Below, piece by piece: positions 3,534 to 46,734 of a stretch of DNA of 64,000 nucleotides. Both the position numbers and the translations under genes were made by a program. The DNA comes from an uncultured Eubacteriales bacterium (GTDB lineage: Bacteria; Bacillota; Clostridia; Lachnospirales; Lachnospiraceae): contig CASFBR010000085.1 in the NCBI GenBank assembly GCA_949292795.1, positions 18,990 to 82,989 of the forward strand. Direction: 5' to 3'. A model generated the notes under the pieces. That model worked only from the letters and a program-made list of their open reading frames with translations. It had not been told where the DNA came from and did not search any database. Each line of letters begins with the position of its first letter. Positions within the stretch are counted from its first letter, which is position 1.

Positions 3534-6176
3534 TTAGCGGAGCTGACCGTCAAGCACCTGTACACAAGCTTTTAAGGCATCGTCGATACCGGCCGGATTC
3601 TTTCCGCCGGCCTGAGCCATATTGGGGCGTCCGCCGCCGCCGCCGCCCACAAGCTTTGCGATCCCTTTAATGAGATTGCCCGCGTGAGCGCCCTGCTTCA
3701 TGGCCTCCTGTGTCGCCATGGCAAGCAGGCTGACCTTTCCGTCCTTTTCAGAGGCCAGTACAATAACGCCCTCGCCAAGCTTTGCCTTTAACTGGTCGCC
3801 CAGGTTCATCAGGCCCTGCATATCGACACCGGACACACGGGCTGCTAAAAGAGCGCAGCCTTTAACCTCCTGAACCTGATCCATCACATCGCCAAGGGCA
3901 TCCTTGGCCATTTTATTTTTCAGCTTTTCGTTTTCAGCCGTCAGCGTTTTTACTTCCTCCATAAGTGTCTCAATACGTTTTACAAGAGACGCCGGCTCTG
4001 TCTTTGCCGCATGGGCAGCCTCTTTTAATTCCTGCTCTAAAGAAGCATAATATTTAAATACGCCGTTTCCGGTCAGTGCTTCGATACGGCGCACACCGGC
4101 AGCCACGCCGGCCTCGGAAATGATCTTAAATGCGCGGATTGCTCCGGTGGAGGACACATGCGTACCACCGCATAATTCCTTGGAAAATTCGCCCATACTT
4201 ACAACGCGGACATCTTTATCATATTTTTCACCGAAAAGCGCCATCGCACCGGCTTTTTTCGCCTCGTCAATATCCATGATCTTTGTGAGTACCGGAAGGT
4301 TCGCCTCGATCTGTTCATTAACGATCGCTTCCACGCGCTCAAGCTCCTCTGGCGTCATGGCAGAAAAATGAGTGAAGTCGAAACGCAGACGGTCTTCATT
4401 GTTGCTGGAACCGGCCTGCTGCACATGGCTGCCCAAAACAATCTGCAATGCTTTCTGGAGCAGATGGGTAGCGCTGTGGTTTTTCGCCGTATCGCTGCGC
4501 TTCTTATTATCAATAGATAAGTTCACCGAATCGCCCACCTTAAACATGCCTTTTGTGACAACACCCACATGGCCGATCTTGCCGCCAAGCAGCTTGATCG
4601 TATCTTTTACGGCAAATTCACTGTCCTTGCATGTAATCACGCCGGTATCGGCCTCCTGACCGCCGCTGGTGGCATAAAACGGCGTTTCATTTACAATAAT
4701 CGTTCCCTGCTGACCGTCTACAAGGGCATCCACGATCTCATCCTCTGTCGTCAGCACAGAAATCTCTGACGTATAGGCTGTATATTCATAGCCTACAAAG
4801 CGGCTTGTGACTGCAGGATCGATCGACTGATATACGGTCACATCTGCGCCCATATAATTGGTCGTCTTGCGCGCCTTGCGGGCCATATCCCGCTGTTTAT
4901 CCATAGCGGCCTTAAAACCGTCATGGTCAATGGTGATTCCATCCTCTTCAAGAATCTCCTCCGTCAGGTCGATGGGGAAACCATAGGTATCATAAAGGCG
5001 GAATGCATCGTCGCCGGAAAGTACCTTGCTGCCGGAGGCGTTTAATCCGGCTTTCATATCATTTAATATGCTCAGGCCCTGATCGATCGTCTTATTAAAC
5101 TTATCTTCCTCCTCATTGATGACCTTAAAAATGAAGTCCTTTTTCTCTTCAAGCTCCGGATAGCCATCTGCGGAAGTCTCGATCACCTTGTGGCTTAAAT
5201 CGGCTAAAAACTTTCCGGAAATACCAAGGAGGCGTCCGTGGCGGGCGGCACGGCGCAGCAGACGGCGCAGCACATAGCCCCGTCCTTCATTGGACGGCAT
5301 GATACCGTCAGATACCATAAAGGTAACGGAACGGATATGGTCTGTAATAATACGGATGGAAACATCCGCCTTTGCACTTTCTTTATAGCGCACACCGGCC
5401 AGGTCGCACACCTGCTCTCTCAGCGCCTTGATCGTGTCCACATCAAAAATCGAATCCACATCCTGAACAACACTTGCCAGACGCTCAAGTCCCATACCGG
5501 TATCAATATTTTTACTCTCTAAAAGCTCATAATGGCCGTGGCCGTCATTTTCAAACTGGGTAAAGACATTATTCCAGATTTCCATATAGCGGTCGCAGTC
5601 ACAGCCTACTGTACATCCGGGCTTGCCGCAGCCATACTTTTCACCGCGGTCATAATAGATTTCGGAACATGGGCCGCAGGGGCCTGCGCCGTGCTCCCAG
5701 AAATTATCTTCCTTGCCAAAACGGAAAATCCGTTCTGCGGGAATACCGATTTCTTTATTCCATATTTCAAACGCTTCATCGTCATCCACATAAACAGACG
5801 GATAGAGGCGGTCTTCTTCAAGGCCGATGACCTTAGTGAGAAATTCCCAGGACCATGCGATTGCTTCGTGCTTAAAGTAATCGCCAAATGAAAAGTTGCC
5901 AAGCATTTCAAAAAAGGTTCCGTGCCGGTCGGTCTTGCCGATATTTTCAATATCACCGGTACGGATGCACTTCTGGCAGGTCGTCACTCTTGGACACGGC
6001 GGAATCTCCTGCTTTGTAAAATAAGGCTTTAACGGTGCCATACCGGAATTAATCAAAAGTAAGCTGTTATCATTATGAGGGATCAGTGAAAAGCTCTTCA
6101 TCACCAGATGTCCCTTACTCTCAAAAAATTCCAGGAACATTTTCCTCAGTTCATTCAGTCCATAATATCTATTCAA
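3534..6176 (-). CDS. alaS: Alanine--tRNA ligase
   Basis: Full-length AlaRS (about 880 aa), which charges tRNA-Ala and edits Ser/Gly mischarging. The class II catalytic domain contains NSGMAPLKPYF and GRGYVLRRLLRRA; the editing domain contains the zinc-binding motif HSATHLLQKAL with the matching ELCGGTHV; a coiled-coil linker and a C-terminal Gly-rich segment (GGGGGGRPNMAQAGG) follow. The start is TTG at 6176, with AAAGGAGG 8 nt upstream, giving MNRYYGLNELRKMF as expected for the family; upstream in-frame Met codons lack a ribosome site. A consensus promoter lies 50 nt upstream, too close to leave room for a T-box leader. Confidence 0.98.
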   Translation of the reverse strand: MNRYYGLNELRKMFLEFFESKGHLVMKSFSLIPHNDNSLLLINSGMAPLKPYFTKQEIPPCPRVTTCQKCIRTGDIENIGKTDRHGTFFEMLGNFSFGDYFKHEAIAWSWEFLTKVIGLEEDRLYPSVYVDDDEAFEIWNKEIGIPAERIFRFGKEDNFWEHGAGPCGPCSEIYYDRGEKYGCGKPGCTVGCDCDRYMEIWNNVFTQFENDGHGHYELLESKNIDTGMGLERLASVVQDVDSIFDVDTIKALREQVCDLAGVRYKESAKADVSIRIITDHIRSVTFMVSDGIMPSNEGRGYVLRRLLRRAARHGRLLGISGKFLADLSHKVIETSADGYPELEEKKDFIFKVINEEEDKFNKTIDQGLSILNDMKAGLNASGSKVLSGDDAFRLYDTYGFPIDLTEEILEEDGITIDHDGFKAAMDKQRDMARKARKTTNYMGADVTVYQSIDPAVTSRFVGYEYTAYTSEISVLTTEDEIVDALVDGQQGTIIVNETPFYATSGGQEADTGVITCKDSEFAVKDTIKLLGGKIGHVGVVTKGMFKVGDSVNLSIDNKKRSDTAKNHSATHLLQKALQIVLGSHVQQAGSSNNEDRLRFDFTHFSAMTPEELERVEAIVNEQIEANLPVLTKIMDIDEAKKAGAMALFGEKYDKDVRVVSMGEFSKELCGGTHVSSTGAIRAFKIISEAGVAAGVRRIEALTGNGVFKYYASLEQELKEAAHAAKTEPASLVKRIETLMEEVKTLTAENEKLKNKMAKDALGDVMDQVQEVKGCALLAARVSGVDMQGLMNLGDQLKAKLGEGVIVLASEKDGKVSLLAMATQEAMKQGAHAGNLIKGIAKLVGGGGGGRPNMAQAGGKNPAGIDDALKACVQVLDGQLR

Positions 6177-6227
6177 AATTATTTCCTCCTTTTTTGCGCC
6201 CAATATCATACATTTAGCCAGTACTTT

Positions 6228-6256
6228 ATTATAAAGTGAAATAAAATCTTTGTCAA
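6228..6256 (-). promoter_or_regulatory. Consensus sigma-A promoter of alaS
   Basis: Minus-strand TTGACA (6251-6256) and TATAAT (6228-6233) separated by exactly 17 bp, a perfect match to the housekeeping consensus. The leader to the TTG start is only about 45 nt. Confidence 0.9.
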
Positions 6257-6300
6257 TGTAAAGCCGGAGGCTTTTTGCTGTGGTCAACGCTTTTTGCACA

Positions 6301-35467: not shown

Positions 35468-36551
35468 AAGCGCCTTTCAAAAGCCCAGACAAGCAAAAGC
35501 GCTTCTTAAAAAGCTTGAAGCGCTTTCTTTGGCCACCGGCCCGATCCGGCTGATGGAAATCTGCGGCACACATACGATGGCGATTGCGCAAACCGGCATT
35601 AAAAGTCTCCTTCCAAAAAACATTGAGCTTTTATCCGGCCCCGGCTGCCCGGTGTGCGTCACACCGGCAAATGTTATCGACGAGGTGCTGCGCCTTTCAT
35701 CCGATCCCCACCGGATCATTGCCAGCTATGGCGACCTGCTCCGTGTCCCGGGCAGCCACCGCCAGGATACACTGTGGCATCGAAAAGCCATGGGCGCCCA
35801 TATACTTTCCGTCTACTCCCCCATGGATGCCCTTGAAGCAGCCAAAGCCCACCCAGAGAAGGAGGTCTTATTTCTTGGCGTTGGCTTTGAGACCACTGCT
35901 CCGGGAACAGCAGCCTGTATTTTAGAAGCCGCCCGTCAGGGCATCCGCAACTTTTTTGTCCTGAGCCTGCTTAAGCAAACGCCGCCGGCACTGCGCGCCC
36001 TCATTGAAGCACCGGACTTTAAGGTCAGCGGCTTTTTGTGCCCGGGCCATGTTGCCGCCGTGACCGGAAGCCGTGCTTTTAAATTTCTCCCTGAAGATTA
36101 TGCGCTCCCGGCGGTAATCTCCGGTTTTGAAGCCGGTGATCTTTTGGCTTCTGTTTTTAAGCTGACTCAAATGATTGCTGACAGACAGCCCGCCTTATAT
36201 AATGAATACATCCGTCTTGTGAAGGACGAAGGAAATCCTGCAGCTCAGGCCATGATCCGCCAGGTCTTTGGACCCGGTGACAGCGTGTGGCGCGGTCTTG
36301 GCAGTGTCGCAAAAAGCGGCCTGCGCATCCGCAGTGCTTACGCCGATTTCGACGGTGCCCGGCGCTTTGGCTTTGCCCCAAAGGAAACCGAAGCGATTCC
36401 CGGCTGCCGCTGTGCCGAGATCATCCGCGGTGTCCTCTCACCCTGGCAATGCCCGTTGTTTAAAACCACATGTACACCAAAGGACCCCGTGGGGCCCTGC
36501 ATGGTTTCCTCAGAAGGCGCCTGTGCTGCAGCTTATAAATACAGTGAATGA
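35457..36551 (+). CDS. hypD: Hydrogenase Fe-S scaffold HypD
   Basis: 364-residue scaffold where the Fe(CN)2CO unit is assembled. Conserved blocks are EICGTHTMAI (the catalytic Cys), GPGCPVCVTP, GFETTAPGTA, GFLCPGHVAAV, and the [4Fe-4S] cysteines in CRCAEIIRG, FKTTCTPKDP and GPCMVSSEGAC. The ATG at 35457 has GGAGG 9 nt upstream; a TTG two codons earlier is less likely. Confidence 0.96.
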   Translation: MLYESAFQKPRQAKALLKKLEALSLATGPIRLMEICGTHTMAIAQTGIKSLLPKNIELLSGPGCPVCVTPANVIDEVLRLSSDPHRIIASYGDLLRVPGSHRQDTLWHRKAMGAHILSVYSPMDALEAAKAHPEKEVLFLGVGFETTAPGTAACILEAARQGIRNFFVLSLLKQTPPALRALIEAPDFKVSGFLCPGHVAAVTGSRAFKFLPEDYALPAVISGFEAGDLLASVFKLTQMIADRQPALYNEYIRLVKDEGNPAAQAMIRQVFGPGDSVWRGLGSVAKSGLRIRSAYADFDGARRFGFAPKETEAIPGCRCAEIIRGVLSPWQCPLFKTTCTPKDPVGPCMVSSEGACAAAYKYSE

Positions 36552-36566
36552 AAGGATGTAAGCGAT

Positions 36567-37616
36567 ATGGAAGAAATCATTACTTTAGATTACGGCAGCG
36601 GCGGACAAAAAACATCCGAACTCATCGAAGCGATGCTGCTTCCGGCGCTGGACAATCCGGCACTTCAGCAGCTTAGCGACGGCGCCGTGCTTGCCGGCCC
36701 GGTGCACGGCGGCGTTTCCGAAACGGACGGCTCTGCCGGGCCTAATGGCAGCAGCCCGATCGTCTTTTCTACCGATAGCTTTGTTGTCTCCCCATGGCGT
36801 TTCCCCGGAGGCGATATTGGAAAGCTGTGCGTCTGCGGAACCGTCAATGACCTGTCCATGATGGGTGCTGTTCCAAAGTATCTGAGTCTGTCCCTGATTT
36901 TAGAGGAAGGCTTTTATATCCGGGACCTGAAGGAAATTATCGCATCGGTTGCCCGGGAAGCAAATGCCGCCGGTGTCCATATCGTTACGGGTGACACAAA
37001 GGTCGTCGAACACGGTAAAGGCGACGGTATTTATATCAACACAAGCGGTATCGGCTTTCTGAAAAACCCCATGCCCGGGAAGGCCGGCATTACCGAAGGC
37101 GATGCCGTCATCGTCAGCGGCAGCATCGGCTGTCACGGCGCCTGTGTGATGATGGCGCGGACCGGTATCATAAATGGCGATGCGCTTTTCTCCGACTGCC
37201 AGCCGCTGACTGCACATGCCCTTGCGGCCGCCGCATCCGGCCGGGTGCGTATTATGCGCGATCCAACCCGCGGAGGTCTGGCCACAACACTCAATGAATT
37301 TACTGAAGGTACAGGCCTGTGTATTGAAGTTGATGAAGACACAATTCCCATAGACCCGGCAGTTGCCGCCGCCTGCGACCTGCTCGGCTTTGACCCGCTC
37401 TACTGTGCCTGCGAAGGGCGGATGCTGGCCGTTACGGCGCCGGAGGATGCCGAAGCGATTGTTTCTGCCTTAAGGCGCCTGCCCGGCAGTAAAAACGCCT
37501 CCGTCATTGGCACCGTCACACGCCGACGGCCCGGGCATGTCCTTTTAAAAACAACACTGGGCGGCCACCGCCTTCTTGGCAAGCTTTCCGGCCAGCAGCT
37601 CCCGCGCATCTGCTAG
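36567..37616 (+). CDS. hypE: Hydrogenase maturation protein HypE
   Basis: 349-residue PurM-like ATPase that dehydrates the carbamoyl group on its C-terminal cysteine to thiocyanate. The N-terminal DYGSGGQKTSELI, FSTDSFVVSPWRFPGGDIGKLCVCGTVNDL and GDTKVV blocks are intact, and the chain ends in PRIC with the required terminal cysteine. It is the last gene of hypABFCDE and converges on a DUF1801 gene with an 8-bp gap. Confidence 0.96.
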   Translation: MEEIITLDYGSGGQKTSELIEAMLLPALDNPALQQLSDGAVLAGPVHGGVSETDGSAGPNGSSPIVFSTDSFVVSPWRFPGGDIGKLCVCGTVNDLSMMGAVPKYLSLSLILEEGFYIRDLKEIIASVAREANAAGVHIVTGDTKVVEHGKGDGIYINTSGIGFLKNPMPGKAGITEGDAVIVSGSIGCHGACVMMARTGIINGDALFSDCQPLTAHALAAAASGRVRIMRDPTRGGLATTLNEFTEGTGLCIEVDEDTIPIDPAVAAACDLLGFDPLYCACEGRMLAVTAPEDAEAIVSALRRLPGSKNASVIGTVTRRRPGHVLLKTTLGGHRLLGKLSGQQLPRIC

Positions 37617-37624
37617 CGGCGCAG

Positions 37625-38038
37625 TCATTTTTTCGTTCCGTATGCCGTTTCGCACCATGCCGCGATCTCTTCGATCAGTTCAAGGGGCAATGGCTTATCA
37701 TAAGGGAACTGGATCGTTCCCTTGCTTGTTTTGTAGTCTTGCAGCCGGTGTGCAAAGGCCTCCACTGCCGCCGGCCCTGGATACAGGCCGATATGGTTTC
37801 TGGATGCCGCAAATTGGATAAGGTTTCGCTGCTTCCAGTAAGTCGGCATGCTCCACGAAATTTTGGGTACAGCATCCGGCAATGTTCTGTGAATCGTTTC
37901 ATTGATTTGTCTTAAATACAGCTGCGCATATTCCGGCTGCTGGGTAATATACTCTTCTATACTCTGCGGCGTTATTTTGCAGTAATGGCTTTGATTTTTA
38001 TTTTTGAAATCCCGTCCGCATTTCGGGCATTTCCACAT
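37625..38038 (-). CDS. DUF1801 protein with an N-terminal zinc-finger-like motif
   Basis: 137-residue protein. The C-terminal part (about 25-130) is YdhG/DUF1801-like: LPDAVPKISWSMPTYWKQRNLIQFAASRNHIGLYPG and FPYDKPLPLELI, a small alpha-beta fold related to YjbR/frataxin-like proteins. The first 22 residues (MWKCPKCGRDFKNKNQSHYC) resemble a C2-HC metal-binding motif. I chose the ATG at 38038, with GGAGG 8 nt upstream, over an earlier Met inside that site. Function unknown. Confidence 0.82.
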   Translation of the reverse strand: MWKCPKCGRDFKNKNQSHYCKITPQSIEEYITQQPEYAQLYLRQINETIHRTLPDAVPKISWSMPTYWKQRNLIQFAASRNHIGLYPGPAAVEAFAHRLQDYKTSKGTIQFPYDKPLPLELIEEIAAWCETAYGTKK

Positions 38039-38070
38039 GCTTTTCACCTCCATGAACAAAGAGTTCCGCC

Positions 38071-38143
38071 TGCGCAGCTTAAGCGCCAGGCACGGGGTCG
38101 CTTCCGCGACAATTTTCTTATCGCGCGCGTGCGCAGCTTAAGC
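38071..38143. repeat. Short direct repeats beside a palindrome
   Basis: TGCGCAGCTTAAGC occurs at 38071-38084 and 38130-38143, with a small GTCGC/GCGAC hairpin between. It lies in the gap between DUF1801 and the Gfo/Idh terminator. Confidence 0.6.
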
Positions 38144-38148
38144 AGAGC

Positions 38149-38192
38149 TTTTTTATTGCATAGGAACATAAAGCTTCCTATGCAATAAAAAA
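38149..38192. repeat. 18-bp-arm perfect palindrome, T-run first
   Basis: Arms 38149-38166 and 38175-38192 are perfectly complementary with an 8-nt loop. Each strand reads a T-run, then ATTGCATAGGAA, the loop and the complement, ending in an A-run, which is the reverse of a terminator. The T-run on the minus strand is shared with the adjacent Gfo/Idh terminator. Confidence 0.7.
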
Positions 38193-38226
38193 ATGGTGTA
38201 ACCCGCTGGAAAACAGGTTACACCAT
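38186..38226 (-). terminator. Terminator of the Gfo/Idh gene
   Basis: Perfect 11-bp arms ATGGTGTAACC (38193-38203) and its complement (38216-38226), followed on the minus strand by seven T residues. It lies 67 bp after the stop codon of the oxidoreductase. Confidence 0.85.
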
Positions 38227-38292
38227 CTCTTACAGCTTTACTGCCTGATCCATACCGGGTACTTCTCTTAGCAGTGCTTCATTCTTTTTTAA

Positions 38293-39405
38293 TTAGAATA
38301 CGATTTCTTTGCCTTCAGCGTCAGATTTGTAGATCGCATCAAGAATCTGAGTAACAACGAAGGCCTGTTCCGGAAGAACTAACGGATCTTTGCTCTCATC
38401 AATGATGCAGTCGATCCACTGTTTAGCTTCCAGAGCGCCAGGCTCAGAGGCACCGCCTTCAAAGTAAGCAACCTGACCAGTACCGGAGATATGCTCTTCC
38501 ATAAGCTGGTTGTTTCTTCCTCTGTTGTAGATCAGTTCATTATCCTTGTAGCTCATACCGGAACGGATTTCAGCACCGGCAAGTGTACCGCAAAGTGTTG
38601 TGGAAGCTTCTCTGGAATCAAGGATATTTAAAGCCCAGGATGCTTCAAGAACGATCGTTGCACCATTCTTCATCTTGATGAAACCAAATGCGGAATCTTC
38701 TACTTCATAGGTCTCAGGATCCCAGGGTCCGAAAAGGTTGCCCTCAACAGCCTGAGGCAGATGACCTAATTTATAATATACGGAACCAAGAACACGATCC
38801 GGCTCGTAGTTGTTCATGCACCATAATGTAATATCAAGGGCATGTGTTCCGATGTCGATCAGTGGGCCGCCGCCCTGAAGTGCCTTGTTCGGGAATACGC
38901 CCCATGTAGGAACAGCTCTGCGGCGTACAGCATGAGCCTTTGCGTAGTAGATTTCGCCTAATTCGCCATTTTCGCAGGCTTTGTGAAGGTTCTGAACTTC
39001 AGGTCTGAAACGGTTCTGATAACCGATCGTGAACTTCTTGCCGGATGCTTTCCAGGCATCGATCATTTCTTTAGCGGCTTCCGGGTTGTGTGCCATCGGC
39101 TTTTCGCAGATAACATGCTTGCCGGCCTTGAAAGCAGCAACTGTGATCGGGCAGTGTGCAACGTTTGGAGTAAGAACGTTAACCACATCGATCTCAGGGT
39201 CTGCAAGTAATTCATTATAATCTGTGTAAACCTTAGCATCTGGTGTACCGTATTCCTTGGCAGCCTTTTCAGCTCTCTCTACGATAATATCGCAGAAAGC
39301 TACAAGATCAACACGGTCTTTCTGTGTCTGTAAAGAAGGCAGATGCTTCTGGTTTGCAATACCACCGCAGCCGATGATACCAATCTGAACTTTACCGTTT
39401 TTCAT
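38293..39405 (-). CDS. Gfo/Idh/MocA-family oxidoreductase
   Basis: 370-residue NAD(P)-dependent sugar or cyclitol dehydrogenase. The N-terminal Rossmann motif GIIGCGGIANQKHLPSL and the diagnostic EKPMAHN (Lys of the EKP motif) are present, and GPLIDIGTHALDITLW carries the catalytic Asp/His of the family. Codon choice (GCT, GGT, GTT, AGA, CTT) differs from neighbours that favour GCC/GGC/CGG and is typical of a highly expressed gene. It is monocistronic, with a promoter at 39463-39491 and a strong terminator. The substrate is unknown; oxidation of a glycoside or free sugar at C3 is one known activity of relatives in gut anaerobes. Confidence 0.88.
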   Translation of the reverse strand: MKNGKVQIGIIGCGGIANQKHLPSLQTQKDRVDLVAFCDIIVERAEKAAKEYGTPDAKVYTDYNELLADPEIDVVNVLTPNVAHCPITVAAFKAGKHVICEKPMAHNPEAAKEMIDAWKASGKKFTIGYQNRFRPEVQNLHKACENGELGEIYYAKAHAVRRRAVPTWGVFPNKALQGGGPLIDIGTHALDITLWCMNNYEPDRVLGSVYYKLGHLPQAVEGNLFGPWDPETYEVEDSAFGFIKMKNGATIVLEASWALNILDSREASTTLCGTLAGAEIRSGMSYKDNELIYNRGRNNQLMEEHISGTGQVAYFEGGASEPGALEAKQWIDCIIDESKDPLVLPEQAFVVTQILDAIYKSDAEGKEIVF

Positions 39406-39462
39406 AGTTTTTTTACATCTCCTTATGTATTTTTTGACTTATTGCATAAATCAGCCATATAT

Positions 39463-39491
39463 ATAGTAGCATTTCTCAGACAATTTTGCAA
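39463..39491 (-). promoter_or_regulatory. Promoter of the Gfo/Idh gene
   Basis: Minus-strand TTGCAA (39486-39491) and TACTAT (39463-39468) with a 17-bp spacer, in A/T-rich DNA, about 57 nt upstream of the start. Confidence 0.65.
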
Positions 39492-39620
39492 ACCTTTTTG
39501 AACATTTTCTGAATAAGAAACTTTATATATTGATAAATAAAGGCTCGGAGAGTCCTGAGATTGATCCATTGTTTAAATAATTGATGTTTTCATCTGTTAT
39601 TCACCCCTTCTCTCAATAAA

Positions 39621-39654
39621 AAAGAGCCCTGCGAACTTACTCGTAAGACTCCTT
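39621..39654 (-). terminator. Possible terminator of the Uma2 gene
   Basis: Weak stem (CTTA/TAAG core with partial outer pairing of AAGGAG and CTCTT) followed on the minus strand by TTTTTT, 16 bp after the stop codon. The T-run is convincing, the stem less so. Confidence 0.4.
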
Positions 39655-39669
39655 AAATTAACGGTTTAT

Positions 39670-40209
39670 TTATTCAGTTTTTATTCTTATTTTCAAATCT
39701 CCGTCATAGATACCAACTGGAACTTCGTCGAAAAATGAGTAAGTGTTTGCATCGTCTTTATCAAACTCATAAACAATCACCAACTTTCTGTCAGGATCGA
39801 CAATCCAATATTCTTTAACTCCAGCTGTCCGGTATTTAAACAACTTAATGAAGTAATCCATTCGTTTGCTTCCCGGCGAGACAATCTCGATCACCCAGTC
39901 AGGAGCGCCATGGCAACCTTTTTCATCCAGTTTTGATTTATCGCAGATAACTGAAATATCAGGTTCAATATAAGTTTTATCATCACTGTTAAGAAAAACG
40001 GCAAATGGTGCTGCTAATGCTACACATTCTCCATGTTTTGAATGTATATAAGAGTAAATCGTATTATGCAAGAATGCGGAAATATTCTGATGAGTCAGTC
40101 CAGGCGGCGCCATCATATGCATTTCCCCGTCAATAAGCTCCGCACGCACGCCATCTGGCAATGCGTAAATATCATCTATCGTATATTGCTTTTTCTGTGC
40201 CAATGCCAT
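39670..40209 (-). CDS. Uma2-family endonuclease-like protein
   Basis: 179-residue Uma2/DUF820 protein with the restriction-endonuclease PD-(D/E)xK fold: RAELIDGEMHMMAPPGLTHQ, then YIEPDISVICDKSKL, then WVIEIVSPGSKRMDYFIKLFKYRTAGVKEYWIVDP. The D and E-x-V catalytic positions of the family appear intact. Its cellular role is unknown; the family is expanded in cyanobacteria. The ATG at 40209 follows AAAGGAG. Its A/T-rich codons differ from the neighbouring genes, which suggests transfer. The family mostly occurs as single orphan genes, as here. Confidence 0.82.
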   Translation of the reverse strand: MALAQKKQYTIDDIYALPDGVRAELIDGEMHMMAPPGLTHQNISAFLHNTIYSYIHSKHGECVALAAPFAVFLNSDDKTYIEPDISVICDKSKLDEKGCHGAPDWVIEIVSPGSKRMDYFIKLFKYRTAGVKEYWIVDPDRKLVIVYEFDKDDANTYSFFDEVPVGIYDGDLKIRIKTE

Positions 40210-40267
40210 AAATATCACACTCCTTTTCTCAATGTTATCATATCTACTTGAAACTCTCAATCTTATT

Positions 40268-41542
40268 TCAACAATATAAATTCCGGGCAAAATCCCGGGC
40301 ACGCCCCAGCTCGTCATAAATTTTTAAAAGCCGGTTATATTTGGCCGTGTGATCCGCCCGGCATACGCCTCCGGCTTTAATCTGTCCGGCATTGACCGCC
40401 ACCGCAAAATCAGCAATCATCGAATCCTCGCTCTCCCCGCGGCGTTCCGACACGATCACAGCATAGCCAAGCCGCCGGGCTGTTTCTGCCGTGCACTGAG
40501 CCTCGCTCACTGTACCGATCTGGCTTAGCTTGAGCAAAAGGGCGTTTCCCGCCTGCTTTTGCGCCCCCATTTTCAGCCGGGAAGCATTGCCCGCAAAAAA
40601 ATCATCACCGGCAATGGTCACATTCTTCCCAAGGCGCTGTGTCAGCTCACACCAGCCATCCCAGTCATCCTGGTCGAGCCCGTCCTCGATGGAACGCAGC
40701 GGAAAGCGGCTGCACAGATATTCGTAGTAATCGATCAGCTCCTGTGCATCCATTTCCATCGTCTCCTTGTCAGAAAAGCGGTATTTTCCGTTGTTCCACA
40801 GACGGCTCGCCGATACGCCAAGCGCCAGCGTCACATCCCTGCCCGGCTGATAGCCGGCTTCACAGATCGCTTTGACTATATAGGACAGCGCCTTTTCATT
40901 GGACGTAAGCTCCGGCATAAAGCCTCCAAAATCGCCGACTGCCGTACCGTAGCCATCCATCTCAAGAATCCTGCCAAGGCTTCCGAAAATCTCACAGCCC
41001 ATGCGTACCTGCTCTTTAAAATCTTCCGCGCCTGAAGGCATGATCATAAAATCCGAAAATCCGGGGCCCTTTCCGGCCCTTCCCCGTCCGCAGATCATAT
41101 GTATCTGCGGTACCGGAAGGACATGCGCAAAGCAGCCGCCCAGATACCGGTACAGCGGCAATGACGCGCAGGCTGCCCCTGCCCGTGCACAGGCCATGGA
41201 CACGCCCAAAATCGCGTTGCCGCCGAGATTGCCTTTATTATCCGTCCCGTCAAGCTCCAGCATCGCCTGGTCGATTTCCATCTGCTCCAGCACGCACATC
41301 CCTGTGAGTGCCTTTTTAAGCACTGTATTGACATGCTCTGCCGCCTTTAAAACACCCTGGCCCATATATCTTTTTCCCTGCATGTCCCTAAGCTCCAGCG
41401 CTTCATAAATACCGGCCGAAGCACCCGACGGCACGATGGCGCTGCCGCAGGCGCCGCACTGCGTATAAACCTCCACCTCAAGCGCCGGAATCCCTCTGGC
41501 ATCGATCACTTCTCTGGCAAATATATTTTTAATATAAGGCAT
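40268..41542 (-). CDS. Enolase-like protein lacking several catalytic residues
   Basis: 424-residue homologue aligning over its full length with enolase (AREVIDARGIPALEVEV at the start, SIEDGLDQDDW, AKYNRLLKIYDELG at the end). Key positions differ from the enolase consensus: VGDEGG is VGDFGG (general-acid/base Glu to F205), LALDxAAS is LALGVSAS (metal Asp to G242), VSHRSGETED is VSERRGESED (His to E366), QEFMIMP is SDFMIMP, and the NGGxHAxN loop is CGRGRAGKG. E286, D313, K338 and K389 are kept. It is unlikely to be the cell's glycolytic enolase and may be a pseudoenzyme or bind a different substrate. The start at 41542 lies inside a hairpin (41545-41601). Confidence 0.85.
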   Translation of the reverse strand: MPYIKNIFAREVIDARGIPALEVEVYTQCGACGSAIVPSGASAGIYEALELRDMQGKRYMGQGVLKAAEHVNTVLKKALTGMCVLEQMEIDQAMLELDGTDNKGNLGGNAILGVSMACARAGAACASLPLYRYLGGCFAHVLPVPQIHMICGRGRAGKGPGFSDFMIMPSGAEDFKEQVRMGCEIFGSLGRILEMDGYGTAVGDFGGFMPELTSNEKALSYIVKAICEAGYQPGRDVTLALGVSASRLWNNGKYRFSDKETMEMDAQELIDYYEYLCSRFPLRSIEDGLDQDDWDGWCELTQRLGKNVTIAGDDFFAGNASRLKMGAQKQAGNALLLKLSQIGTVSEAQCTAETARRLGYAVIVSERRGESEDSMIADFAVAVNAGQIKAGGVCRADHTAKYNRLLKIYDELGRARDFARNLYC

Positions 41543-41544
41543 CA

Positions 41545-41601
41545 AAAAACCTCCGAACTGTTTTTACTAATAAGCTTAGTATAAACCGTTGGGAGGTTTT
41601 T
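41545..41601 (-). promoter_or_regulatory. Long hairpin with the ribosome site in its stem, before the enolase-like gene
   Basis: Near-perfect inverted repeat with arms of 26 bp (three mismatches) and the loop TAAGC or its complement. In mRNA of the minus strand the 3' arm ends in GGAGGTTTTTT, followed directly by the ATG of the enolase-like gene, so the ribosome site is paired and the U-run lies just before the start codon. It can act as the terminator of the upstream amidohydrolase and as a block on translation of the next gene. Confidence 0.75.
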
Positions 41602-41605
41602 ATAC

Positions 41606-43024
41606 TTATTTTCCGGGTACTACCCAGTAATTCTGAAATTCATTGCGCAGCACCTTTGTACATACGGCCTCGCCTTCGCGGGCAAGCGCCGCCTCGTCGA
41701 CACCGGTCAGCACGCCGTCCTTATAGACAACCCTTCCATTAATCATGGTCAGCCATACCGGCCCGGTTACGCCCACACGGGCAAGGAGATTCTTCGGATC
41801 ATGGAGCGCTCCGACAAGCTCCAGGCCTGTCGTATCGATCATAAAAAGGTCCGCACCCTTTCCTTCCTCAAGACTGCCAAGGTCCGCCCGTCCGAGCGTT
41901 TTTGCCCCATTAACCGTTGCGATCTTCAGCAGATCATATGCGGACACACAGCCGCCCCGCGCCTTTGTATGATAGGCCTGCATCAGGTACGCCATTCTTA
42001 AAGCATCCAGCAGATTGGAGCTGTCATTAGTTGCAGAGCCGTCGCAGCCGAGACTGACCGTGATTCCCTGCTCCTGCATCCATTTAATATCAAGGATCGG
42101 GAAGCCGCCAAGCACAGCCGGTGCCGGACAATGGGACACACCGGTGCCGGTGCGTGCCAGAACCTTATATTCATCCTCAGTCAGCTCCCACGCATGGGCC
42201 ACAAAGGTTTCAGGCCCTAAAAAGCCCATATCCTCGCACCACTGTACCGAACGGACACCATAACGTTCACGGATGCCTTCGCTCTCACCTTCGCCCAGAT
42301 GCGTATGCAGACGTACACCTTTGGCCTTTGCCAGCTTCACAGATTCCACAAATGTCTCCTTATAGCAGTTGATCGGCTGACACGGAGAGATAACGACCTG
42401 GCTCATGGAAAACGGCCGACTGTCGTGATATGTATCAATGAGCCGCTCACAGTCACGGATAAACGTATCTGTGGATTCGACCATAGCCGCAGGGATCGAG
42501 CTGCCGTTTTCCCGCTCCAGCGTATTGCCGCCGCGCCCGGCATGGTAGCGGATTCCCAGCGCCTTTGCCGCCTCCATCTGGCGGTCTACCGGGCGGCATC
42601 CGGTATCGGTCGTGTAACAGTACTGATGATCGAAGGCACATGTGCATCCGTGCTTGATCAGGTCTGCCATGGCCGTCAGCGATGAATAATAGATTACATC
42701 GTCATTAATGCGCTGGAAAATCCGATAGATCAGATCGATCCAGTCCATGACAAGCAGGTTCGGATAATCGATCGTTGTCAGATTGCGCACAAATGTCTGG
42801 AAAAAATGGTGATGGGTGTTGATCAGGCCGGGATAGACATATTTCCCACGTCCGTCGATCACCTCCGCATCCTTTGCATACAGCGGGTCTTCACAAAGAT
42901 TTTTGCCGATCTTTAAAATTTTCGGGCCGTCGATCAAAATATCACCGTTAAAGATTACCTCGTCGGCAGCATTACATGTCACAATGGCGCCCGCATTTTT
43001 AATAAGCTGTCTGCTCACAGACAT
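41606..43024 (-). CDS. Amidohydrolase, 8-oxoguanine deaminase/hydroxyatrazine hydrolase-like
   Basis: 472-residue metal-dependent amidohydrolase of the ATZ/TRZ (COG0402) group. Metal and catalytic motifs in order: NTHHHFFQTF (HxH), HTHLGEGESEG (His and Glu), HAWELTEDE (His) and GCDGSATNDSSN (Asp). This set is typical of aminohydrolases acting on purines such as 8-oxoguanine or guanine, or on s-triazines; the exact substrate is inferred. The ATG at 43024 follows GGAGGGAG. It is followed by the hairpin at 41545-41601. Confidence 0.86.
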   Translation of the reverse strand: MSVSRQLIKNAGAIVTCNAADEVIFNGDILIDGPKILKIGKNLCEDPLYAKDAEVIDGRGKYVYPGLINTHHHFFQTFVRNLTTIDYPNLLVMDWIDLIYRIFQRINDDVIYYSSLTAMADLIKHGCTCAFDHQYCYTTDTGCRPVDRQMEAAKALGIRYHAGRGGNTLERENGSSIPAAMVESTDTFIRDCERLIDTYHDSRPFSMSQVVISPCQPINCYKETFVESVKLAKAKGVRLHTHLGEGESEGIRERYGVRSVQWCEDMGFLGPETFVAHAWELTEDEYKVLARTGTGVSHCPAPAVLGGFPILDIKWMQEQGITVSLGCDGSATNDSSNLLDALRMAYLMQAYHTKARGGCVSAYDLLKIATVNGAKTLGRADLGSLEEGKGADLFMIDTTGLELVGALHDPKNLLARVGVTGPVWLTMINGRVVYKDGVLTGVDEAALAREGEAVCTKVLRNEFQNYWVVPGK

Positions 43025-43140
43025 CTCCCTCCTTTATTTCATACCAAATCTGCCATATCCGGTCTGCACAGGGTAGGGGCAGACCCGGCGCTTATATCGC
43101 TGCGGACCGGATGCCCGCACACCTGCGTCCTGTCTTTCGC

Positions 43141-44058
43141 TTACCGCAGGAAGCCTTCAACGATCTTTTCCTCGGCCTCAGCTTCTGTAAGTCCCAGCGT
43201 CATAAGCTTGGTGATCTGATCCCCGGCGATCTTGCCAATGGCCGCCTCATGGATCAGCGCCGCCTCCGTACTGTTTGCCGTAAGCTCCGGAACGGCCTCG
43301 ATTTTTGCCTGATCCATAATAATCGCGTCGCACTCCGAATGTCCGCTGCACGATGTGTTTCCGATAATTTTGGAAACAAATTTCTGGTAAGACGCATCCT
43401 TTGCAACTGCTCTTGAAATCAGATTGGCTCCGGAATCCGCGCCGTCTAAGGATACGTCAAAATAGCTTTCCGCCCGCTGCTTTCCATGGGTCATAAGCCG
43501 CTCGGTAATAACGATCTTCGCACCGGCTTCAAGCTTTGCATGGGTCTTGCGGACCGTCGAATCCACACCTTTAATCTGTACGGTTTCCATCTCCATATAG
43601 CTGTTTTCACCCATTTCGATCACGGTCTCCGGATTCATGATGCGCTCACCGTTGCCGTCGCCCATACCATAGTGCTTTTCCACATACTTCACTCTGGAAT
43701 TTTTCCCGATGAAAAAGCTGTGGATACCATCATGCCGGCTGTCTGCGCTCCCGCCGTTGTGGATGCCGCAGCCGGCAATAATCGTCACATCACAGTCATC
43801 GCCCACATAAAAATTATTATAGACAATCTCTGTCAGGCCGGACTGGCTGATAATCACCGGAATATGAAGACTCTTTTTCTTTGTCCCGGGCTTTACATAT
43901 ATATTTAAACCGCTGCCGTCCTGAATTGGCACGATCTCAATCTCATCGGTCGACTGGCGTCCGATGCTTTTTCCGTTCTCCCGGATATTATAGGCTCCTT
44001 CAGGAATCTCGTGGAGCCCGGCCACCTCTTTAAGTAACTGTAATCGGATCTCGTCCAT
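43141..44058 (-). CDS. SufB/SufD-family Fe-S assembly protein
   Basis: 305-residue scaffold, shorter than SufB (about 450-480 aa). It keeps the SufB-type pair in IHEAAIGKI (His/Glu) and the TSCSGHSECDAI block. With only one SufB/D-like partner and one SufC, it matches the SUF-like minimal systems reported in Clostridia and archaea, in which a SufB-like protein dimerises with two ATPases. It starts 12 bp after the sufC stop and is the second gene of this operon. Confidence 0.88.
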   Translation of the reverse strand: MDEIRLQLLKEVAGLHEIPEGAYNIRENGKSIGRQSTDEIEIVPIQDGSGLNIYVKPGTKKKSLHIPVIISQSGLTEIVYNNFYVGDDCDVTIIAGCGIHNGGSADSRHDGIHSFFIGKNSRVKYVEKHYGMGDGNGERIMNPETVIEMGENSYMEMETVQIKGVDSTVRKTHAKLEAGAKIVITERLMTHGKQRAESYFDVSLDGADSGANLISRAVAKDASYQKFVSKIIGNTSCSGHSECDAIIMDQAKIEAVPELTANSTEAALIHEAAIGKIAGDQITKLMTLGLTEAEAEEKIVEGFLR

Positions 44059-44070
44059 CTCTTTGCCCCC

Positions 44071-44814
44071 TTAATTTTTCTGCTTTTCGTAAAATTTACA
44101 GCCGCAGCCCTCAGGCACGTCAATGTCACCAAAAATCTTTGAGAGCATCGTTTCTCTCGGGCCCCGATCACGAAGCTGACCGTCGGCGATCATAATGATC
44201 TCGTCGGCGATATTTAAAATACGTTCCTGATGTGAAATAATCAGGATCGTCCCGTGATTTTGCTGATGAAGCTTTTCAAAAACCTGGATCAGATTCTGGA
44301 AGCTCCAAAGATCAATACCGGCCTCCGGCTCATCAAAAATCGTCAGCGGCGTATTTCTTGCCATAACCGTGGCAATCTCAATACGTTTCAGCTCGCCGCC
44401 GGACAGACTGGCATTGACCTCACGGCGGATATAATCCTTGGCACACAGGCCAACCTCCGACAAATATTCACATGCCTTATCCACATTGATCTGCTTTCCG
44501 GTGGCCAGCTGGATCAGATCAAACACGGTGATTCCTTTAAAGCGCACCGGCTGCTGGAAGGCATAGCTGATCCCGCTTTTAGCCCGGTCGGTTACGCTCA
44601 TCCGGGTAATATCCTCACCATTCCACAAAATCCTGCCCGAGGAAGGTGTTTCCACGCCTGCGATAATCTTGGCCAGCGTCGATTTTCCGCCGCCGTTTGG
44701 CCCCGTCACTACGATAAAACGGTTATCATCAAGTGTCAGATTAATATCTTTAAGAATCCCTTTTGTTTTGCTGTTTTCATCCACATCAAAACAAATATTC
44801 TGTAATTCAAGCAT
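44071..44814 (-). CDS. sufC: Fe-S assembly ATPase SufC
   Basis: 247-residue ABC-type ATPase that partners the SufB-like protein. Walker A GPNGGGKST, Q-loop AFQQPVRFKG, signature SLSGGELKR, Walker B LTIFDEPEAGID and the switch His in ISHQERIL are present. The C-terminus carries GCGCKFYE with paired cysteines, not found in classical SufC. The ATG at 44814 follows AAAGGAG. The promoter is at 44875-44903. Confidence 0.92.
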   Translation of the reverse strand: MLELQNICFDVDENSKTKGILKDINLTLDDNRFIVVTGPNGGGKSTLAKIIAGVETPSSGRILWNGEDITRMSVTDRAKSGISYAFQQPVRFKGITVFDLIQLATGKQINVDKACEYLSEVGLCAKDYIRREVNASLSGGELKRIEIATVMARNTPLTIFDEPEAGIDLWSFQNLIQVFEKLHQQNHGTILIISHQERILNIADEIIMIADGQLRDRGPRETMLSKIFGDIDVPEGCGCKFYEKQKN

Positions 44815-44874
44815 CCTTCATGCTCCTTTCTAAGTCAACCGGCAAATACCGGCGCGGCTTGTGCCACAATGGGT

Positions 44875-44903
44875 ATTATACGTCAAAACCGGACAAAATA
44901 CAA
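44875..44903 (-). promoter_or_regulatory. Promoter of the suf operon
   Basis: Minus-strand TATAAT (44875-44880) with TTGTAT (44898-44903) 17 bp upstream. The -35 lies inside the arm of the upstream terminator, a compact arrangement of terminator and promoter. Confidence 0.6.
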
Positions 44904-44942
44904 GGCCGCAGCCCTATAAAGAGACAGGGCTGCGGCCTTGTA
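44899..44942 (-). terminator. Terminator of the ktr-pit operon
   Basis: Perfect 17-bp arms 44899-44915 and 44926-44942 with a 10-nt loop, followed on the minus strand by TATTTTG. It lies 90 bp after the DUF47 stop codon. The T-run is modest. Confidence 0.65.
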
Positions 44943-45032
44943 TGTACCGCAAATCCGCCGCAGCGCGGCATCATCAGACAATTTTTATCAAAAAAGTCCT
45001 GACGCCGGTGGCAAAACGGTGGCAAGCGCCGA

Positions 45033-45656
45033 TTAAGAATTTTTCATAACAACACTTTCTACGACATCGGCCACATGCTCACAGGCATCGGCACATTTTT
45101 CAAGATAATCATAAATTTCCCGCCACGCGATAATGGCAAGGACATCCTTCTCCTGAGTGTGGAGCCGGCGCATACTGTCGATATACAGATGATCCGCCTT
45201 TTCCTCCAGAGAATTGATATGGATCACATGGGTCATCAGTTTATTGGAATGTCTGAAATTTTTAAACTCCTCCAGAAGGCTGCACATTTCTTCACAGCAT
45301 TCAATGACAATATCCAGCATTGCCAGCGCATCCTCGCGGATCACATGGACATCATTGATATATATTCTAAGCAGCACTTCCTCGATCTTATCGGTCACCT
45401 CGTCGATATGGTGGCTTAAGGAAACGATGTCCTCCCGCTCAATGGGTGTGATAAACGCCTTGGCAAGCTGATCCGTGAGACGGTGCTTATGCTCGTCACC
45501 GGCGCGCTCAATTTCATGAAGCTCATCTTGGCGCTGGGAAATATCCTCACTTTTAAAATTTTCCAGAGTCTTTTTTAACTGTCTGGCCGCGTCCAGCGAC
45601 AGCCGGGCACAGGCGGTAAAATTATCAAAATAAAAAGCGTCTTGTTTTTTCGACAT
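45033..45656 (-). CDS. DUF47/PhoU-like Pit accessory protein
   Basis: 207-residue all-alpha protein of the DUF47 family, with the E-x3-D metal-binding repeats of PhoU-like folds (ELHEIERAGDEHKHRL; HINSLEEKADHLY; YDYLEKCADACEHVADVVE). It is thought to regulate or assist Pit phosphate transporters, and here it directly follows pit by 19 bp. It is the last gene of the operon. Ribosome site GGAG before the ATG at 45656. Confidence 0.92.
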   Translation of the reverse strand: MSKKQDAFYFDNFTACARLSLDAARQLKKTLENFKSEDISQRQDELHEIERAGDEHKHRLTDQLAKAFITPIEREDIVSLSHHIDEVTDKIEEVLLRIYINDVHVIREDALAMLDIVIECCEEMCSLLEEFKNFRHSNKLMTHVIHINSLEEKADHLYIDSMRRLHTQEKDVLAIIAWREIYDYLEKCADACEHVADVVESVVMKNS

Positions 45657-45675
45657 GATCTTACTCCTTCACTTA

Positions 45676-46734
45676 TCAGAAAATCAACATAAATATTTTA
45701 GCCATAACAAAGCTTATAAGACCGCATCCCGGGAATGTAAATATCCAGGTAAGCATCATATCCTTCACGACCCCGAAATTGATCGCCGATATACGCTTGA
45801 CCGCCCCCACGCCCATAATGGCGCTGGTCTTTGTATGCGTCGTCGACACCGGGATACCAAACAGGCTGGAATACAGCAGGCACAAAGCGCCGGACAGGTC
45901 TGCGCAAAAGCCCTGATAGCGCTCCAGCTTGACCATATCCATACCGACAGACTTAATGATCTTTTCACCGCCGACACTCGTTCCAAGCCCCATAACAATA
46001 CTGCAAAGCAGCATCAGCCATACGGGGATTTCCATGCCGGTCACTGAATTTTGATTGTTGGCAAAGGCGATGCCGAGGAACAAAACACCGATAAATTTCT
46101 GGCCGTCCTGAGCGCCGTGCATAAAGCTCATCGCTGCGGCTCCGGCGATCTGCGCATAGCCAAAAACGCGGTTCGCCTTGCGCCGGTCCAGCGCCCGGCA
46201 TAAAATTGTCACCAGCTTACATATAACCCATCCGGTCAAAAAGCCCAGGGCAAGACTTAAAACAAGGCCGTAAATAACCTTGACCCACTCGCTGCCATTG
46301 ACGCCGTCGGTGCCGTGCTGGATAGCGATCGCAGCGCCTGTAAGGCCGGCGATCAGGCTGTGGCTTTCACTCGTCGGTATACCAAAAAACGAGGCCGCGA
46401 CACTGTAAACAACAATAGACAATAAGGCCGCGCACAAAGCAATGAGCGCCTCGTGGGTACTATCGCCGAAATCGACCATATTACTGATCGTGGATGCCAC
46501 AGAGCTGTTGATCTGAGTCATCACAAAAACGCCCAGAAAGTTAAAGGCAGCGCTCATCAGGATCGCTTTGCGCGGGCTTAAGCACCGCGTTGTCACGCAG
46601 GTGGCAATGGCATTTGGGGCATCGGTCCAGCCGTTGACAAAGATCACACCTAACGTCAGAAGAACTGTGACCAGCAGCACCGGGCTCCCTAAAATTGCCT
46701 GCCAGAATTGTACAAATGAAACTGAATCTCCCAT
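45676..46734 (-). CDS. pit: Inorganic phosphate transporter, PiT family
   Basis: 352-residue membrane protein with about ten spans and the two PiT signature repeats: GWTDAPNAIATCVTTR in the N-terminal half and SFMHGAQDGQKFIGV in the second half, with GTSVGGEKIIKS and GIPVSTTHTKTSAIMG. It imports metal phosphate with H+ or Na+. It lies 33 bp after ktrA and 19 bp before DUF47. The grouping with KtrAB suggests coordinated potassium and phosphate uptake. Confidence 0.94.
   Translation of the reverse strand: MGDSVSFVQFWQAILGSPVLLVTVLLTLGVIFVNGWTDAPNAIATCVTTRCLSPRKAILMSAAFNFLGVFVMTQINSSVASTISNMVDFGDSTHEALIALCAALLSIVVYSVAASFFGIPTSESHSLIAGLTGAAIAIQHGTDGVNGSEWVKVIYGLVLSLALGFLTGWVICKLVTILCRALDRRKANRVFGYAQIAGAAAMSFMHGAQDGQKFIGVLFLGIAFANNQNSVTGMEIPVWLMLLCSIVMGLGTSVGGEKIIKSVGMDMVKLERYQGFCADLSGALCLLYSSLFGIPVSTTHTKTSAIMGVGAVKRISAINFGVVKDMMLTWIFTFPGCGLISFVMAKIFMLIF

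Follow-up and report, generated by a model that had tools for sequence, protein, structure and literature searches.

A catalytically degenerate second enolase in the Catenibacillus clade

The window analysed here, a stretch of 64,000 nucleotides, comes from the metagenome-assembled genome of a gut bacterium that belongs to the genus of Catenibacillus scindens. Its minus strand carries a second enolase gene, which lies in the following surroundings:

44071-44814, minus strand: SufC-like gene, upstream of the enolase and its neighbour in 4/4 genus genomes
43141-44058, minus strand: SufB/D-like gene, upstream of the enolase and its neighbour in 4/4 genus genomes
41606..43024, minus strand: amidohydrolase gene separating SufB from the enolase; its best match, 8-oxoguanine deaminase, scored under the cut-off of that family
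41545..41601, minus strand: inverted repeat in the enolase leader, with 26-nt arms that are 88% complementary; pairs AAAAACCUCC with the Shine-Dalgarno sequence GGAGG
40268..41542, minus strand: catalytically degenerate second enolase of the Catenibacillus clade, 424 aa, assigned by Pfam, TIGR01060, active-site tables, AlphaFold and Foldseek
39670..40209, minus strand: Uma2-family gene (PF05685) between the enolase and dgpA
38293..39405, minus strand: Gfo/Idh/MocA oxidoreductase, homologue of the C-glucoside 3-oxidase DgpA (7xr9, E 1.8e-174)

The enolase reading frame extends from the ATG start codon (41540-41542) to the stop codon (40268-40270) without an internal stop and is preceded by a Shine-Dalgarno sequence. 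Its product spans both enolase domains at full length (Enolase_N, PF03952, residues 4-134; Enolase_C, PF00113, residues 140-419). It reached 518.6 bits with the equivalog model TIGR01060 'phosphopyruvate hydratase' (cut-off 300), a score that by itself does not test the catalytic residues. AlphaFold2, run with a 40-sequence alignment, returned a model with a pLDDT of 91 and a pTM of 0.91, in which the lowest confidence, the C-terminal end aside, fell on residues 151-160 (66), the block of a rewritten loop. All 50 matches listed by Foldseek for this model were solved enolases (TMq 0.93-0.98, 42-51% identity). The enolase fold is confidently predicted to be intact, and the initial annotation of this DNA, which had described a full-length enolase fold, agrees with the Pfam, AlphaFold and Foldseek results. 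Searching a plasmid collection yielded 1,121 matching records, every one below 60% identity.

For the active site, 14 catalytic or ligand positions (42, 151, 155, 163, 164, 205, 242, 286, 313, 338, 366, 367, 368 and 389) were compared across 46 Lachnospiraceae enolases and 77 enolases from a collection of genome contigs. These 123 rows (119 distinct; four pairs have an identical 180-aa core) leave out 12 duplicate loci and the contig-truncated L011. Residues are numbered in the ATG-started window protein, for which the earlier numbering proved correct, and were matched to the Mycobacterium tuberculosis enolase by motif order; N151, Q163, H366 and S368 we take to be enolase active-site positions. 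The consensus residue stood at all 14 positions in all 123 other rows. The window enolase departs from it at eight (N151C, H155R, Q163S, E164D, E205F, D242G, H366E and S368R), retains S42, E286, D313, K338, R367 and K389, and has a further active-site change, N340S. Codon positions and the alignment place the changes as follows:

41078..41092, minus strand: rewritten NGGxHA catalytic loop, C151 G152 R153 G154 R155, with His155 replaced by Arg
41051..41056, minus strand: Q163S and E164D (E164 equals Glu163 of M. tuberculosis enolase)
40928..40930, minus strand: E205F, loss of the general acid Glu (M. tuberculosis Glu204)
40817..40819, minus strand: D242G, loss of one of three Mg(A) ligands (M. 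tuberculosis Asp241)
40439..40447, minus strand: H366E and S368R, flanking the retained R367

The alignment bore out what had been read from the sequence before, namely the replacements F205, G242 and E366, each at a position holding the consensus residue in all other rows, the retention of E286, D313 and K338, and a rewritten NGGxHAxN loop, which reads CGRGRAGK. The changes N151C, H155R, Q163S, E164D, S368R and N340S come in addition to those named earlier. Functionally, the catalytic base Lys is present (K338). The general acid position 205 holds Phe instead of the Glu found in 123/123 other rows, two of the three acidic Mg ligands (242, 286, 313) are present with Gly in place of D242, and the active-site histidines 155 and 366, likewise His in every other row, are Arg and Glu.

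Ten of these residues correspond to residues of M. tuberculosis enolase named in the accessible part of PMC10619443: S42/Ser42, H155/His154, E164/Glu163, E205/Glu204, D242/Asp241, E286/Glu283, D313/Asp310, K338/Lys335, R367/Arg364 and K389/Lys386. According to that part, alanine mutants of D241, E163, E204 and K335 were non-functional and S42A kept about 5% of the activity, while crystals of E163A and E204A still contained PEP. Because alanine at the equivalents of E164, E205 and D242 kills the M. tuberculosis enzyme, dehydration of 2-phosphoglycerate by the window enolase would, judging from this literature, be very unlikely. A protein that still functions as an enolase by means of compensating residues would be in keeping with the retained K338, K389, R367, E286, D313 and S42 and with the NCBIfam equivalog assignment. 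The loss of the general acid, a Mg ligand and both active-site histidines, the non-functional M. tuberculosis mutants (PMC10619443, in the part available) and a complete housekeeping enolase in the same genome make this explanation highly improbable.

That housekeeping enolase (L012) lies on contig C9, is complete and has a consensus active site. Its orthologues in the three other genus genomes share 80-81% identity with it, and of 118 invariant residues (columns in which 109 canonical rows agree to at least 97%) it has lost a single one, with the catalytic ones intact; it is presumably the active enolase. Absence of any other enolase, which the initial annotation had named as fatal to its view, was thus not found, and the window gene as sole enolase of the genome was ruled out by this copy. 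A third, contig-truncated enolase match on contig C22 (L044) was dropped. C22 is probably a contamination giving a spurious third enolase, because over 4,020 bp it shares 99.4% identity with a Ca. Scybalocola faecipullorum contig and because it deviates in GC content (0.449 vs 0.50). One such contig in the genome lends some colour to the idea that the degenerate gene is itself an assembly or binning artefact. Set against it are the length of the window contig (83 kb), its GC content (0.499 vs 0.498 of the C9 stretch), a local gene order that agrees with three congeners, and substitutions that are scattered and in frame with no frameshift, and we consider the probability of an artefact negligible.

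Orthologues of the window enolase were found in Ca. Scybalocola faecigallinarum (67% identity), Ca. S. faecavium (64%) and C. scindens DSM 106146 (about 60%; range 59-67%), so that a second enolase is present in all four genus genomes compared, with the locus order SufC-SufB-enolase-DgpA. In a quick tree of 37 rows the window enolase and its orthologues formed one clade (SH-aLRT 100), which adjoined the faecipullorum-type enolase (SH-aLRT 99) and stood apart from the C9 type; among the end branches of its four members, that of the window enolase was the longest (0.57). When a profile of the four members was run against 397 family genomes, the Catenibacillus members listed scored 850-890 bits and all other matches at most 608; genome G001 of the genus was absent from the matches listed, and its copy was found by another search. 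A wider second-enolase clade was dismissed for the family and order genomes searched, as nothing lay between the Catenibacillus members listed and the next enolase at 608 bits. With a stricter cut-off the window genome was the sole match among 295 order genomes. A scan of genome contigs relied on two peptide patterns, with 80 of 232 relatives retained. As far as sampled, the clade appears to be restricted to Catenibacillus.

The related canonical enolase of Ca. S. faecipullorum and Frisingicoccus caecimuris precedes ilvN-ilvC-like genes, which by reading would encode the acetolactate synthase small subunit and ketol-acid reductoisomerase. Since the related canonical gene sits there, the Catenibacillus copy appears to have been moved or duplicated. 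The DgpA homologue follows the second enolase in all four genus genomes, in the window with one gene between. The three congeners have no gene at the place of the amidohydrolase or the Uma2-family gene, both of which are extra in the window species. Beyond the DgpA homologue, hydrogenase-maturation genes were present in the three genomes with a contig long enough. In the portion of PMC11170127 that is accessible, HNP82_000642 of C. scindens is named DgpA and adjoined by the [NiFe]-hydrogenase maturases HNP82_000643-648; the DgpA homologue of our C. scindens locus should be this gene, and the second enolase would then be HNP82_000641. The same portion places dgpBC away from dgpA in C. scindens, C. 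faecavium and C. tixagia, and the word 'enolase' does not occur in it.

This neighbourhood bears on the possibility that the protein is a neofunctionalised enzyme, whose barrel catalyses another reaction, for example on the DgpA product (a 3-oxo sugar) or on another carboxylate. A second enolase beside dgpA or one gene off in all four genomes, the separation of dgpBC from dgpA in the three species (PMC11170127, accessible portion), the retained base K338 and two of three metal ligands together with K389 and R367, and 24 residues common to the four copies, each present in no more than 5% of canonical rows, are consistent with it. From the 42 matches to DgpA listed across 299 genomes, 30 loci were surveyed with flanks of up to 1.5 kb. 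An enolase stood beside DgpA at only two, both in Catenibacillus, and at none of the other 28; an enolase-DgpA link outside this genus was rejected. Moreover, the catalytic residues of the window protein and its congeners differ, which makes one shared new chemistry unlikely. Overall, we regard a new enzymatic activity as unlikely.

The congener second enolases retain E205, D242, H155, H366, E164 and Q163. Changes were seen at positions 151, 368 and 370 in three of three congeners, at 204 in two and at 39 and 41 in one. Loss of the catalytic core is therefore confined to the window species, and the congener copies may still be active enolases because most catalytic residues are retained there. 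Among the 118 invariant columns, 27 were changed in the window enolase, compared with 17, 19 and 23 in the congeners and at most three in canonical rows, except L114 with nine. With an active-site list of our own comprising 27 columns, the window enolase had changes in 10/27 active-site and 17/91 other invariant columns (odds ratio 2.6, Fisher p = 0.066). For the congeners the counts were 3, 4 and 6 of 27 and 14, 15 and 17 of 91. The excess of the window enolase over the congeners appears to lie at the active site, because the active-site changes (10 vs 3, 4 and 6) differ and the other columns are similar; formal enrichment is marginally supported. The pattern of a moonlighting or repurposed pseudoenzyme put forward by the initial annotation therefore holds in part: a paralogue without essential residues and under apparent purifying selection was found, and a cleanly selective replacement was not (p = 0.066).

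The four copies are also rich in cysteine, with 13-14 residues vs a median of four in canonical rows (six in the same family; maximum nine). Cysteines 29, 83, 125, 137 and 298 are common to the four copies and occur in 1-5 of 109 canonical rows each; the SufB and SufC genes adjoin. Special conservation of the window cysteines was not found, 8/14 being invariant in the four copies. A special role of cysteine, for instance of the five shared ones in metal binding, is not indicated, because it is conserved no better than Gly or Tyr.

Selection was examined by codon likelihood models on fixed trees of four, six and three taxa. On the window branch ω was 0.19, 0.15 and 0.17, respectively, and in the congener second enolases 0.09, 0.10 and 0.11. 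Neutral evolution (ω = 1) of the window branch was rejected (2ΔlnL 26.3, six taxa), and an old relic is ruled out by these values. The second enolase of the window species appears to be under purifying selection. Its ω exceeded that of the congeners in every fit, clearly so in the four-taxon fit only, and relaxation on the window branch was at most mild because 2ΔlnL for the difference was 6.15, 1.55 and 1.95 with four, six and three taxa. The stem of the clade gave a poorly determined ω of 0.58 (0.11 to 1.06 across models). The ratio of nonsense to missense opportunity is 0.051, so the probability of zero stops after 80 neutral missense changes is about 0.017. For this single genome of the species, ω and the stop-free reading frame argue against a long neutral period and not against a recent one.

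A recently inactivated duplicate, intact by chance and heading to loss after selection relaxed in the window lineage only, would match the restriction of core residue loss to this copy, the roughly twofold higher ω in the four-taxon fit and the 27 of 118 changed invariant columns. It is harder to reconcile with the rejection of ω = 1, with the small gap to the congeners in the six- and three-taxon fits, and with non-active-site columns eroded about as in the congeners (17 vs 14, 15 and 17 of 91). In addition, the codons of F205 (TTT) and E366 (GAA) are at least two base changes from any Glu and His codon, respectively, and the reading frame, the Shine-Dalgarno sequence and the leader hairpin are intact. 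Recent inactivation is conceivable but rather doubtful.

Ten genes were fitted, as it seems the paralogue itself, the housekeeping enolase and eight further genes from the region. Gene-wide ω was 0.126 for the second enolase, similar to hypF (0.110), in a comparison that is rough, with hypE and the HAD gene at the branch-length bound and hypD and sufB apparently saturated. The sole gene with a clearly raised ω in the window lineage was the C9 housekeeping enolase (0.105 vs 0.035; 2ΔlnL 13.6, or 16.4 with four taxa). This increase would fit co-adaptation of two enolase subunits, to which it is a weak pointer.

The enolase leader can fold into a hairpin in which an arm resembling AAAACCUCC pairs with the Shine-Dalgarno sequence in all four species, with z -5.4 in the window species and -5.8, -3.0 and -3.7 in the congeners. 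The congener hairpins are located as follows:

L041, 9378-9460: congener enolase leader hairpin
L042, 10360-10455: congener enolase leader hairpin
L043, 9782-9893: congener enolase leader hairpin

The window enolase leader ranked second by fold among 35 chosen gene leaders of the window. The top rank belonged to the reading frame at 3534-6299 (putative alanyl-tRNA synthetase; z -6.45), folded from the listed GTG, which is possibly not the true start. Where the amidohydrolase intervenes, the hairpin stays with the enolase and not with SufB. Two-sided covariation was found in none of 13 pairs of the automatic consensus fold of four sequences, and Rfam gave no match in window positions 36000-46000. 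A strict rule (Shine-Dalgarno sequence lying entirely within the 3' arm, z of -2.5 or lower and a T run of at least four before the ATG) was applied to 105 enolase leaders and satisfied by 7. All of these belong to the 39 rows counted as Lachnospiraceae, a group in which L069 was placed by assumption. L013 is the L063 record, and seven loci and one with N were left out of this survey. The congener leaders L006 and L007 fail the rule despite z of -4.1 and -4.2. The hairpin precedes several canonical Lachnospiraceae enolases and is absent before the four C9-type genes tested. Its shape is terminator-like, the 3' arm being the enolase Shine-Dalgarno sequence followed by a T run directly before the ATG, and similar hairpins occur in the leaders L016, L026, L036, L069, L070 and L130. 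The loop of several enolase leader hairpins contains an ATACTA motif; our guess is that it serves as a promoter -10 element, yielding transcripts without the anti-Shine-Dalgarno arm.

The loss of essential residues, the retention of the predicted fold, the paralogue on C9 and the signs of purifying selection together make the identification of the window enolase as a pseudoenzyme well supported, and it is probably kept for another job. A pseudo-enolase that does not dehydrate 2-phosphoglycerate and acts as a ligand-binding or regulatory partner of enolase is a reading to which we give an even chance. According to this proposal, a copy of the second-type Lachnospiraceae enolase, which has ilvN-ilvC-like neighbours in two other genera, would have arrived at the site between SufB and dgpA in the ancestor of Catenibacillus. 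The first changes would have been at positions 151 and 368, where all four species deviate from the consensus. E205F (general acid), D242G (metal ligand) and H155R and H366E (both active-site histidines) would have followed in the window species. The arginines gained, R155 and R368 near the retained R367, might replace the metal and histidine contacts. The protein would fold as an enolase subunit and bind an anionic phospho-ligand (PEP or 2PG) without turnover, or alternatively pair with the housekeeping enolase subunit, and would thus act as a ligand-responsive or regulatory partner. The more specific version, in which arginines take over phosphate handling from metal and His for Mg-free binding of PEP or 2PG without turnover, serving to sense glycolytic or gluconeogenic flux or to regulate the housekeeping enolase, whose ω is raised in this lineage, in mixed dimers, is quite improbable as it stands.

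The catalytic residues are invariant in 123 other rows, so a full-length copy that is apparently under purifying selection after losing the general acid, one metal ligand and the two active-site histidines is unusual. Catenibacillus offers a natural series at one conserved locus, from the near-canonical copy of C. scindens to the dismantled one of the window species, which allows stepwise tests of how catalysis was lost and whether another role was gained. The locus further illustrates that automatic annotation can assign the name enolase to a protein that probably is not one, here by an equivalog score of 518.6 vs 300 bits.

Pseudoenzymes as such are a known kind. A bacterial pseudo-enolase paralogue was not found in our literature search of open-licence papers. 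The family has a precedent for diversion from glycolysis, as an enolase homologue makes carboxyphosphonoenolpyruvate in phosphinothricin biosynthesis. With enolase (EC 4.2.1.11; B. subtilis 4a3r and the M. tuberculosis enzyme) the window protein has in common both full-length domains and six active-site residues; unlike it, the protein has replacements at the general acid Glu, at one of the Mg ligands, at the two active-site His and at Gln163, Glu164 and Ser368. The enolase-like PRK08350 family (NF006223, 341 positions) matched weakly at residues 66-149, far below its cut-off (66.9 vs 624 bits), the window protein being an enolase over its full length. The M. tuberculosis mutants E163A, E204A and D241A (PMC10619443, in the part available) are altered at positions also altered in the window enolase and are non-functional. 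They are engineered single changes, two of them binding PEP, whereas the window enolase combines several changes. The closest counterparts are the second enolases of the other Catenibacillus genomes (L046-L048), which are orthologous to the window copy by tree and gene order and have the 24 clade-specific residues and the leader hairpin in common with it.
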